Origin: Bdellovibrionales bacterium
GTDB lineage: Bacteria > Bdellovibrionota > UBA1018 > CAIMNF01
NCBI GenBank assembly: GCA_018266375.1
Contig: JAFEAO010000003.1
Span: forward strand, 313,578-377,577
DNA: 64,000 nucleotides
Reading direction: 5' to 3'
How positions within the stretch are numbered: position 1 is the stretch's first letter; every line of letters starts with the position of its first letter. Positions 22,142 to 27,654 of the stretch are shown here, piece after piece. The notes under the pieces were generated by a model. It searched no databases, was not told the DNA's origin, and saw only the letters and a program-made list of their open reading frames with translations. The position numbers and the translations under genes were made by a program.

Positions 22142-22165
22142 GCTGCTCTCCATAAAACTTTATCA

Positions 22166-23347: not shown

Positions 23348-23402
23348 ATGAGTCGGACTTGGGGCGGAAGTCCTCGTTCTTAAGACGGTTCAAGATTTGC
23401 AG

Positions 23403-25664
23403 ATGTTAAGGGTCATGCAAACACTACTCATTATTGTCGCGATCATCTTAGTTACCCTGTTCATCCCGCCGATCCGCCGTCACATCTATAGTTTTCTGAT
23501 CATGAAGACGTTGCAGGCGCTCAAGTTCGTGCCGAAAATTTCGCAGACCGAAAAAGTCGCGATCGACGCGGGTTCGGCTTGGGTCGAGAAGCAATTCTTT
23601 GAAGGTCAGCCGAAGATGAAAATTTTGCTTAAGCAACCGCTGCCGAAGCTGACGGCGGACGAGAAAGCGTTTTTAGACACGAAGGTCGAACCTCTCTGCG
23701 CGATGATCGATGATTGGGAGATTTGGAAAAACCGCACGATCGGCGAAGCGACTTGGAATTACATCCGCAGCGAAAAATTCCTAGGCATGATCATTCCGAA
23801 AAAATACGGCGGCCTTGAGTTCTCGGCCTATGCCCACTCGGAAGTCGTAAAGCGGGTCGCTTCACGCAGTTTGACCGCGGCGATTTACGTGATGGTACCT
23901 AACTCTCTCGGGCCTGCCGAGCTCTTGATTCATTACGGCACCGAAGCGCAAAAAGATTACTACCTTCCCCGCTTGGCTTCGGGCGTGGAAGTGCCGTGCT
24001 TTGCGCTCACCGAGCCGACCGCGGGTAGTGACGCTTCATCGATCGAGTCGTACGGGGTGCTCTTCAAAAAGAATGTCGATGGTAAGGATGAGCTTTGGAT
24101 TCGGCTCAACTGGCGCAAGCGCTACATCACACTCGCAAAAATTTCGACCGTGCTTGGGCTCGCGTTTCAACTTAAAGATCCTGAGGGATTGGCGGGCGAT
24201 GGTAAAGATATCGGGATCACTTGTGCGCTCATCCCGAGTAATGCCAAGGGAGTCATCCTCGAGCATCGCCACGATCCGATGTCGATTCCGTTTTATAACT
24301 GTCCAACTCATGGCGAGAACGTGGAGATCCCGACGTCCGCAATTATCGGAGGCATGAAGCAGGCCGGGAATGGTTGGAAAATGCTGATGCAATCACTCGC
24401 AGCGGGTAGGGGAATCTCGTTTCCGGCGCTCACGACCGGCGAGAGCCAGTTACAGATGAAGATCGTGGCGGCACACGCGACTGCTCGCCATCAGTTCGGC
24501 GTGCCCCTCGCGAAATTCGAGGGCATTCAAAAACCATTGAGCGAAGTTATCGCTTACACGTACTTGCTCGATACGCTCCGGACTTATACTTTGTCCGCGA
24601 TCGATCAGGGTATCAAACCTTCGATCGTGACCGCGATGGCGAAGCTCACCAGCACCGAGTATGCGCGTAAGATCGTCAACAACGCGATGGACGTTCTCGG
24701 GGGTGCCGGGATTTCGATGGGTCCCAAAAACCGCGTGGCGCCTTATTATATTGCCGCGCCGGTGGGGATTACGGTCGAGGGCGCGAACATCCTGACGCGC
24801 ACGCTCGTGATCTTCGGCCAGGGTGCCTTCCGTGCGCATCCACATGCGTTGTCGATGATCGATGCACTCGACAAAAAAGACTTAGCTGCGTTTGACCGCG
24901 CGATATGGGCGCAGGTCCTGCACACCGCTAAGAATACGGTTTTAGCGCCGCTGATGTCTCTGACTCGCGGTTGGATCGCGCACCCGTTCATCGGCGGCCG
25001 TGAAGCCCGCTACATTCGCCGCCTGACTTGGTCGTCGACATCGTTTGCGTGGCTCGTGGACTTCGCCATGATGAGTCTCGGCGGCAAACTTAAGCTTAAA
25101 GAGAGCGTGACTGGTCGCTTGGCCGATGTAATGTGCAATCTGTATTTGGCTTCGGCAATTTTGAATCGCGTGCGCGCCGAGAAGCCGTCCGAAGCGGAAT
25201 GGCAAATCGCACGCTATGCGCTCGATCACGTCTTCTACGAAACCGAACTTGCGTTCGAGGGCTTGTACCAAAACATGCATTTGCCTCTGTTGACCTGGTC
25301 ACGACTGAATCCGTTCTCGAAAGCGGTTTCGGATAAGAGCATGAAACAAGTATCGGAGTTGGTGTTTGATCAGCAAGATCTGCTCAATCGCCTCACGCAG
25401 TCGGTGTATCGTCCTCGTCATCCGGGAGACCATCTCAACCAACTCGAAAAAGCGGCGAAGATGTACGTCGAGGTCGCAAAACTGCACAAAGTCCAAAAGA
25501 GCGGCATCGAGCTCACAGCCGCCAATCAGGCCACGTTGCGAGAGTGGGAGCGCTTGTACGATAGTGTGATCCAAGTCGACGAGTTTACCGAAGAGGAGTA
25601 CACGCGCAAAAGTAAGCTAGTTGCCGGTTTGGAACAGAATACGCAGCATTTAAAAAGCGTTTAA
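23403..25664 (+). CDS. fadE: Long acyl-CoA dehydrogenase, FadE type
   Basis: FadE oxidises acyl-CoA to trans-2-enoyl-CoA, the first step of fatty-acid beta-oxidation, using FAD. The protein is 753 residues, near E. coli FadE (814). An N-terminal membrane helix (about 8-24) is followed by the FadE-specific region (VEKQFFEGQP), MIIPKKYGGLEFSAYAHS, VPNSLGPAELLIHYGT, CFALTEPTAGSDA, LTW-like LNWRKRYITLA, GLAFQLKDPE and TVEGANILTR. The ATG at 23403 is chosen; a TTG at 23397 and ATG at 23415 are alternatives. Its insertion between trmD and rplS is unusual. FadE here may process host or prey lipids, which is inference. Confidence 0.92.
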   Translation: MLRVMQTLLIIVAIILVTLFIPPIRRHIYSFLIMKTLQALKFVPKISQTEKVAIDAGSAWVEKQFFEGQPKMKILLKQPLPKLTADEKAFLDTKVEPLCAMIDDWEIWKNRTIGEATWNYIRSEKFLGMIIPKKYGGLEFSAYAHSEVVKRVASRSLTAAIYVMVPNSLGPAELLIHYGTEAQKDYYLPRLASGVEVPCFALTEPTAGSDASSIESYGVLFKKNVDGKDELWIRLNWRKRYITLAKISTVLGLAFQLKDPEGLAGDGKDIGITCALIPSNAKGVILEHRHDPMSIPFYNCPTHGENVEIPTSAIIGGMKQAGNGWKMLMQSLAAGRGISFPALTTGESQLQMKIVAAHATARHQFGVPLAKFEGIQKPLSEVIAYTYLLDTLRTYTLSAIDQGIKPSIVTAMAKLTSTEYARKIVNNAMDVLGGAGISMGPKNRVAPYYIAAPVGITVEGANILTRTLVIFGQGAFRAHPHALSMIDALDKKDLAAFDRAIWAQVLHTAKNTVLAPLMSLTRGWIAHPFIGGREARYIRRLTWSSTSFAWLVDFAMMSLGGKLKLKESVTGRLADVMCNLYLASAILNRVRAEKPSEAEWQIARYALDHVFYETELAFEGLYQNMHLPLLTWSRLNPFSKAVSDKSMKQVSELVFDQQDLLNRLTQSVYRPRHPGDHLNQLEKAAKMYVEVAKLHKVQKSGIELTAANQATLREWERLYDSVIQVDEFTEEEYTRKSKLVAGLEQNTQHLKSV

Positions 25665-26386: not shown

Positions 26387-26845
26387 ATGGCACAAAAGCT
26401 GATTAAGTCTAAGAGTCGCACAAAGGCTCGCTACGATAATTCTCGTGGCTTGAGCAACACTGTGAAAGCTATCGAAAATTCTGTGATCCGTTCTGATCTT
26501 CCGGAGTTCGCTCCTGGTGACACGATTAAAGTTCACGTGAAAATCAAAGAGGGTGAGAAGGAACGTCTTCAGGCTTTCGAAGGTACCGTGATCAAAATCG
26601 GTAACCACGGCGCGGGCCGTTCGTTCATCGTCCGTAAGATTTCTCACGGCGTGGGTGTTGAGCGTATCTTCAACGCGTCTTCACCATCGATCGGCAAGAT
26701 CGACGTGGTCACTCGCGGTAAAGTTCGTCGTTCTAAACTTTACTACATCCGTGAGCTCGAAGGTAAAGCTGCTAAGATCGATCGTGAAATCGTCACGAAC
26801 GAATCGGCTGCTGCTTCTGCTGCTGCGAAGTCTAAGGCAAACTAA
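26387..26845 (+). CDS. rplS: 50S ribosomal protein L19
   Basis: A 152-residue L19, located at the subunit interface. Core motifs are FAPGDTIKVHVKIKEGEKERLQ, FEGTVIKIGNHGAGRSFIVRKISHGVGVER (given in part) and RSKLYYIRELEGKAAKI. It is longer than the usual 115-120 residues by an N-terminal 25-residue basic stretch (KSKSRTKARYDNSRG) and an alanine/lysine tail (SAAASAAAKSKAN). The ATG at 26387 is preferred to the frame start at 26360. A strong terminator follows and overlaps rnhB. Confidence 0.95.
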   Translation: MAQKLIKSKSRTKARYDNSRGLSNTVKAIENSVIRSDLPEFAPGDTIKVHVKIKEGEKERLQAFEGTVIKIGNHGAGRSFIVRKISHGVGVERIFNASSPSIGKIDVVTRGKVRRSKLYYIRELEGKAAKIDREIVTNESAAASAAAKSKAN

Positions 26846-26871
26846 GCTTCGGCCGCCATTGGATTAACAAC

Positions 26872-27654
26872 ATGGCTTTAAAAAAACCCGAGTGCTTTCC
26901 GGATTTAACCTCCGAAGTCGCCTCGGGTTTTTTATTTTCTGCCTTCGCTGAAGGCGAGGAGCTCCCGCTCATCATCGGCGTCGACGAGGTCGGCCGTGGC
27001 TGTCTCGCAGGCCCGGTCGTTGCCGCAGCTGCCGCACTTGGTTCGAATGTTTGGACAGATCTCGCGTTCGAAGCCGATGGAACTCGTGCCGAAACCAAAA
27101 TTGCCGAAGCTCATCTCGATACTGAGCACAAACGCATTCTTTGGTCGGTGCGCGATAGTAAGCTCATTCCAGAGGATGAGCGCCCGAGCGTTCGCGACGC
27201 GGTCAAGGCGTTTGTTCGGGGTTACGCTGTCGCAGAAGCGTCGGTCGAAGAAATTAATCGTCTCAATATTTTGTACGCGTCTCATCTCGCGATGGAACGC
27301 GCGGTGGCTGACCTCGAAAAGCAGCTCGGACGCGAGGCCGATGTCATCATCATCGATGGAAACATGATCCCCAAACAACTTAAGACACGCGGGCCGAAGC
27401 GCGCGATCGCACTCATCAAGGGCGACCTAAAATCCTTTTCGATCGCTTGCGCTTCGATCATCGCCAAGACGTATCGTGATGACATGATGATCGAGTTCGA
27501 ATCTCAATATCCGGGATACGGATTGGCCAAGCACAAAGGGTATCCGACTCCGTTTCACAAAGCGCAGATCCTCGCGCTTGGTGTAACTCCATTGCATCGC
27601 GCAGCTTTTAAGGGCGTAGCTAATGTCCGTGACCGGTGTCTTTTAGCGGAATAA
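26872..27654 (+). CDS. rnhB: Ribonuclease HII
   Basis: RnhB cuts RNA in RNA-DNA hybrids and starts removal of misincorporated ribonucleotides. The 260-residue protein has GVDEVGRGCLAGPVVAAAA (Asp38, Glu39), the strand IIIDGNMIPK and SIIAKTYRDDMM followed by GYGLAKHKGYPTPFH. It is longer than E. coli RNase HII (198) through an N-terminal stretch of about 34 residues and an insert around 60-85. The first 20 codons lie within a perfect terminator hairpin (26881-26933), and no ATG, GTG or TTG occurs in frame between it and the catalytic motif. Its 3' end overlaps the opposite gene by 35 bases. Confidence 0.92.
   Translation: MALKKPECFPDLTSEVASGFLFSAFAEGEELPLIIGVDEVGRGCLAGPVVAAAAALGSNVWTDLAFEADGTRAETKIAEAHLDTEHKRILWSVRDSKLIPEDERPSVRDAVKAFVRGYAVAEASVEEINRLNILYASHLAMERAVADLEKQLGREADVIIIDGNMIPKQLKTRGPKRAIALIKGDLKSFSIACASIIAKTYRDDMMIEFESQYPGYGLAKHKGYPTPFHKAQILALGVTPLHRAAFKGVANVRDRCLLAE
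26881..26938 (+). terminator. Strong intrinsic terminator inside the rnhB start
   Basis: Perfect 12-bp stem AAAAAACCCGAG (26881-26892) / CTCGGGTTTTTT (26922-26933), with a smaller CGGA/TCCG hairpin in the 29-base loop, followed by TTTTTTATTTT. It lies 35 bases after the rplS stop codon but begins 9 bases after the rnhB ATG. Transcription into rnhB must read through it. Confidence 0.82.

Follow-up and report, generated by a model that had tools for sequence, protein, structure and literature searches.

The window, a 64,000-nt stretch of a Bdellovibrionales contig, carries on its + strand rplS, which encodes ribosomal protein L19 (bL19; 26387..26845; TIGR01024, 148 bits; PF01245) and ends in a TAA stop codon at 26843-26845, and rnhB, which encodes ribonuclease HII (RNase HII; 26872..27654; PF01351). 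The rnhB ORF scored 191.5 bits against NF000595 (NCBIfam cut-off 167) and contains the catalytic motif GVDEVGRG. Between the two genes lies a gap of 26 nt (26846..26871, +) in which anti-Shine-Dalgarno duplex energies reveal no recognisable Shine-Dalgarno sequence for rnhB. The neighbouring genes are trmD (22622), an acyl-CoA dehydrogenase gene (23397) and an RNA methyltransferase gene (PF09936; 25691), followed by rplS and rnhB. The acyl-CoA dehydrogenase gene (23397-25664) is interposed between trmD and the RNA methyltransferase and rplS genes, which elsewhere form a trmD-rplS operon. At 22162 (+), in the intergenic region 5′ of trmD, a 15-bp stem encloses a 23-nt loop and has a T run (ATCAAAGCCCTGACC...GGGGTTAGGGCTTTGAT). 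Even in E. coli, the regulation of the trmD operon, to which rplS belongs, is described as unknown (PMC10931766), and we found no publication on rplS-rnhB termination in the literature. The congeners L004 and L007 have junction sequences that also occur in two MAGs (L031, Oligoflexia bacterium; L032, Bdellovibrionales bacterium).

The stem of a hairpin begins 9 nt past the first base of the rnhB start codon, and 35 nt 3′ of the rplS stop codon. Its 5′ arm (AAAAAACCCGAG; 26881..26892, +) consists of an A tract and CCCGAG and forms rnhB codons 4-7 (KKPE), and its 3′ arm (CTCGGGTTTTTT; 26922..26933, +) consists of CTCGGG and a T run and forms codons 17-21, (A)SGFL. The two arms pair perfectly over 12 bp and are followed by ATTTT. 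The 29-nt loop of this main stem holds an inner 4-bp stem, CGGA/TCCG (26900-26903/26911-26914), within the codons for PDLTSE (26900..26914, +). The predicted RNA 3′ end lies in the U tract (TTTTTTATTTT; 26928..26938, +). The hairpin occupies rnhB codons 4-21, exactly where the first-pass annotation had located its perfect 12-bp stem and T run. Folding of positions 26840-26950 gives −34.9 kcal/mol (z = −3.8), and 1 of 200 shuffles folded equally well. The stem contains GC pairs and is stable, as expected of an intrinsic terminator, with −22.2 kcal/mol for the full stem and −16.0 kcal/mol for the core (congeners, −22 to −35 kcal/mol). An unbroken U tract right after the stem is likewise present, with 6-9 T in 12/12 genomes of the genus, and a stop codon, that of rplS, stands shortly before it. 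A search of the window against Rfam returned no family match at the gathering score. A bidirectional terminator was set aside: the minus-strand repeat is also T-flanked in the window, yet the congeners have an interrupted A tract or none, and the G-U pairs favour the + strand. The best pairing is that of the + strand RNA, whose G-U pairs would be mismatches on the opposite strand.

A working terminator within a gene would yield mRNAs without a stop codon, and for this reason suppression is expected of terminators predicted in coding sequence (PMC4824070). A consensus terminator scan detected only a short sub-stem, with no excess over shuffles, after which a stricter scan was written; a first energy-based scan of the contig was dropped as too permissive. 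The strict scan (stem of at least 9 bp, at least 4 GC, at least 6 T in 7) was applied to one 438-kb contig, which constitutes our genome-wide view, with ORFs called by a simple longest-ORF rule and ten first-order Markov controls. It found 25 terminator-like sites, compared to 3-8 in the controls, and this bacterium therefore does use intrinsic terminators. The rplS-rnhB hairpin is the sole one of the 25 sites that lies inside a same-strand ORF. Stop-proximal terminators of this contig are positioned 20-119 nt after the stop codon of the upstream gene, a range that includes the 35 nt observed here; this distance is also beyond the ~27 nt at which, in an E. coli system, ribosomes at the stop codon cease to repress the terminator (PMC4824070). 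Folding of the start region alone does not set rnhB apart (rank 6 among 405 ORF starts).

The same nucleotides encode the N-terminal peptide of RnhB (MALKKPECFPDLTSEVASGF...). We checked for ATG, GTG and TTG and found none in frame between 26872 and GVDEVGRG; the ATG at 26872 is the only usable start, and the earlier remark that no alternative in-frame start precedes the catalytic motif was borne out. The peptide PDLxxExxxGF/Y(P) before GVDE is also kept in relatives that do not have the hairpin (L048, L049, L051, L059, L078), which makes an RnhB start downstream of 26940 unlikely, and indels around the hairpin are multiples of 3. By this comparison, we judge that the hairpin codons are translated. 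The fallback proposed in the first-pass annotation, that RnhB begins downstream at a non-standard codon, is not supported, as the hairpin-encoded peptide is conserved protein. A GAGGAG sequence, seen by eye in the window some 9 nt upstream of the ATC ATC at the motif, could be taken to mean that RnhB truly starts past the hairpin and that the hairpin is an ordinary intergenic terminator. However, the GAGGAG is missing from the congeners, there is no ATG, GTG or TTG at this position, the PDLxxExxxGF peptide persists in the order also where the hairpin is lacking, and indels in the region preserve the frame, so we give such a downstream start almost no credence.

We found the hairpin at the same place in the rnhB frame, at nearly constant spacing from the ATG, in all 12 genomes of the genus. 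MAFFT and RNAalifold on all 12 yielded a weak consensus, as the pairing in L007-L009 is displaced by one base: these genomes use CTC GGG in place of TCG GGT, and the shifted stem is even stronger. The nine same-register sequences were aligned instead. In this alignment every cell of helix 1 is paired (100%), the + strand RNA accommodates G-U pairs, and five pairs of the whole structure changed on both sides, a count of non-independent events as the genus sequences are related. The core stem occurs as CCCGAG/CTCGGG, CCCAAG/CTTGGG, CCCGAA/TTCGGG and CCCAAT/ATTGGG, and the inner stem changes from CGGAT/ATCCG to CTGAT/ATCAG, the latter in L002. The covariation score is 0.239, compared to 0.111 for shuffled alignments, none of 500 of which scored as high, and it does not exceed 0.090 if the structure is slid by 1-3 columns.

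Synonymous change is suppressed in the hairpin codons. At conserved residues in close pairs of genomes it amounts to 0.09 in these codons versus 0.32-0.70 in other stretches of rnhB (Fisher 7e-16 and 7e-6 in two clades), and clade L010-L012 has 0/53 synonymous differences in the hairpin codons versus 259/508. The codons straight after the hairpin show 42% synonymous differences in close pairs, which argues against a general start-of-gene effect. The T run is also maintained against codon preference, as the window extends it with TTA, a 7% leucine codon, and L010-L012 use TTT in it although TTC is the preferred codon in rplS and rnhB of the same genomes. Among these closely related genomes we saw no congener in which the peptide is kept and the stem broken. 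Taken from this comparison of sequences, the hairpin structure is under selection, and the terminator message and the protein message appear both to be kept.

When the N-terminal codons of rnhB in the window were redrawn synonymously with the peptide preserved, a stem-plus-T-run as long or longer arose in 3/1000 draws, and the same procedure gave 0-50 per 1000 draws per genome for the 12 genus members. That synonymous draws sometimes reach the same hairpin, and that AAA AAA (lysine) and GGN TTT (Gly-Phe) favour the stem, would fit a coding accident in which the peptide KKPE...SGFF happens to yield the structure. The Gly-Phe element would supply both the G run and the T run of the 3′ arm. Against an accident stand the compensatory changes, the suppression of synonymous change and the re-pairing in a second register, and we regard it as highly improbable.

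Outside the genus, an ordinary intergenic terminator follows rplS in eight members of the same phylum (L014, L019, L021, L045, L047, L054, L091, L095), and in L055 and L058 a terminator abuts the rnhB ATG. Several members of the order (L048, L049, L051 and others) have a short gap with no rplS-rnhB terminator, so the arrangement is not essential. Similar hairpins are present within the rnhB start in L018 and L023 (same order), in L099 and L131 (one genus, another family) and in L138. Paired changes from AAGCCCTTC/GAAGGGCTT to AAATCCTTC/GAAGGATTT separate L099 and L131. The L099 hairpin extends from +33 to +68 after the rplS stop codon, and the T run of L131 is weak. In a further genus of the same order (L016, L017, L081), a long GC-rich hairpin without a U run covers the rnhB start (AAGCCCGC...GCGGGCTTT); L081 has no in-frame ATG, GTG or TTG upstream of it.

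Conservation alone would also fit a hairpin that acts in stability or translation control. In such a reading the hairpin controls rnhB translation or mRNA processing and stability, for instance as a ribonuclease site or by blocking the start, and is not a terminator. The location of the stem within the ribosome footprint, 9 nt past the first base of the start codon, and the strong hairpins without a U run in related genera are consistent with it. A plain hairpin, however, needs no T run, yet the run is found throughout the genus against codon preference, and the position and form of the structure are those of the rplS terminators of the phylum; we consider this reading unlikely. The intergenic terminators of L014, L019, L021 and L091 share with the genus terminator the gene pair and the interval after rplS, and differ in that they end before the rnhB start whereas the genus terminator sits inside rnhB. 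In the simplest account, the rplS terminator was kept as the gap shrank, by entering the rnhB codons.

We therefore favour, as the likely interpretation, an intrinsic terminator of rplS that is written in codons of rnhB and that some polymerases read through to express rnhB. The sequence comparisons thus support the part of the first-pass annotation that saw in the hairpin the likeness of an rplS terminator, placed inside the translated start of rnhB. One and the same sequence would then act as terminator RNA and encode the N-terminal peptide of RNase HII. Of the polymerases that transcribe rplS, most would stop at the U tract, at about 26933-26938, and a minority would read through to produce rnhB mRNA. 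The outcome would be much L19 and little RNase HII from a single operon, and the expression ratio of the two proteins is probably the purpose of the arrangement. The rplS-rnhB gap is 6-39 nt across the genus, with no shared sequence seen among the gap sequences, and would leave little room for a promoter; as polymerase coming from rplS must also pass the hairpin, rnhB is probably expressed through read-through. Termination at the U tract and its efficiency are predicted from the sequence, and with a 29-nt loop and a core GC stem of only 6 bp the efficiency in the window may be modest.

In E. coli, the rplL-rpoB attenuator and the rpsU-dnaG terminator are partial terminators between a ribosomal-protein gene and the gene of a scarce protein. 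The locus described here resembles them in its order of ribosomal-protein gene, terminator-like hairpin and gene for a low-abundance nucleic-acid enzyme. In contrast to these intergenic elements, the entire hairpin and U tract here are written in codons belonging to the second gene. In E. coli and Borrelia, transcripts have been reported to end within ORFs, and a minority of these 3′ ends have intrinsic-terminator scores (PMC7815308, PMC10319736); those ends were mapped, whereas here the 3′ end is predicted and selection on the structure is deduced from comparison. At a ribosomal-protein gene, the locus would offer a natural case in which comparative evidence points to simultaneous selection on terminator and protein. 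It would also be a testable example for protein ratios in compact operons, for start codons on truncated mRNAs and for the response of an early in-gene terminator to translation.

The strict claim of the first-pass annotation, by which rnhB expression requires the hairpin to be melted by a ribosome that initiates at the rnhB ATG, is not supported and is unlikely. A Shine-Dalgarno sequence for rnhB is present in none of the 12 genus genomes (anti-Shine-Dalgarno duplex +0.7 to −3.1 kcal/mol). In the E. coli analogue, translation lowered the efficiency of tR2, placed 30 bp downstream of an AUG, by only ~10%, a small loss attributed to initiation being slow relative to polymerase, and non-stop RNA was made (PMC4824070). 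That construct, W48, resembles the rnhB locus in having a terminator ~30 bp past an AUG that follows another gene and in giving truncated RNAs without a stop codon (PMC4824070). It is, however, an artificial construct that combines lambda tR2 with a good ribosome site, whereas the present case is natural, conserved and devoid of a Shine-Dalgarno sequence.

Simple partial read-through is enough to explain rnhB expression, and a weaker coupling through re-initiating rplS ribosomes is possible. In its full form, such coupling would make the terminator translation-gated: rplS ribosomes would re-initiate at the rnhB ATG and melt the stem, and rnhB transcription would depend on translation. The gap of 6-39 nt and the missing Shine-Dalgarno sequence suggest coupling to rplS ribosomes, and the computed stem energy drops from −16.6 kcal/mol to −6.1 kcal/mol after the ribosome has advanced by ~3 codons. 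By the same computation, a ribosome on the ATG would cover and free only the A tract, leaving the GC core of about −16 kcal/mol in place. Together with the small loss in E. coli and a gap that is not conserved, this leads us to rate translation gating as unlikely. We assign a comparably low likelihood to the compound proposal that rnhB dual-coded terminators arose several times in Bdellovibrionota via the Gly-Phe element (a G run, then T) and that the genus terminator is gated by re-initiating rplS ribosomes, with RNase HII supply then following the state of translation.

As a side effect of the favoured terminator with read-through, terminated rplS mRNAs would break off within the rnhB reading frame before any stop codon. 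Ribosomes would be kept away from this orphan start by the lack of a Shine-Dalgarno sequence and by the closeness of the stem, which starts 9 nt past the first base of the ATG. A tmRNA above the Rfam cut-off is missing in 5/12 genus genomes (G001, G005, G006, G008, G009), some of them 96-97% complete, and this could reflect gaps in the assemblies or a tmRNA that is divergent or permuted. The source genome itself contains a tmRNA gene (ribosome rescue).
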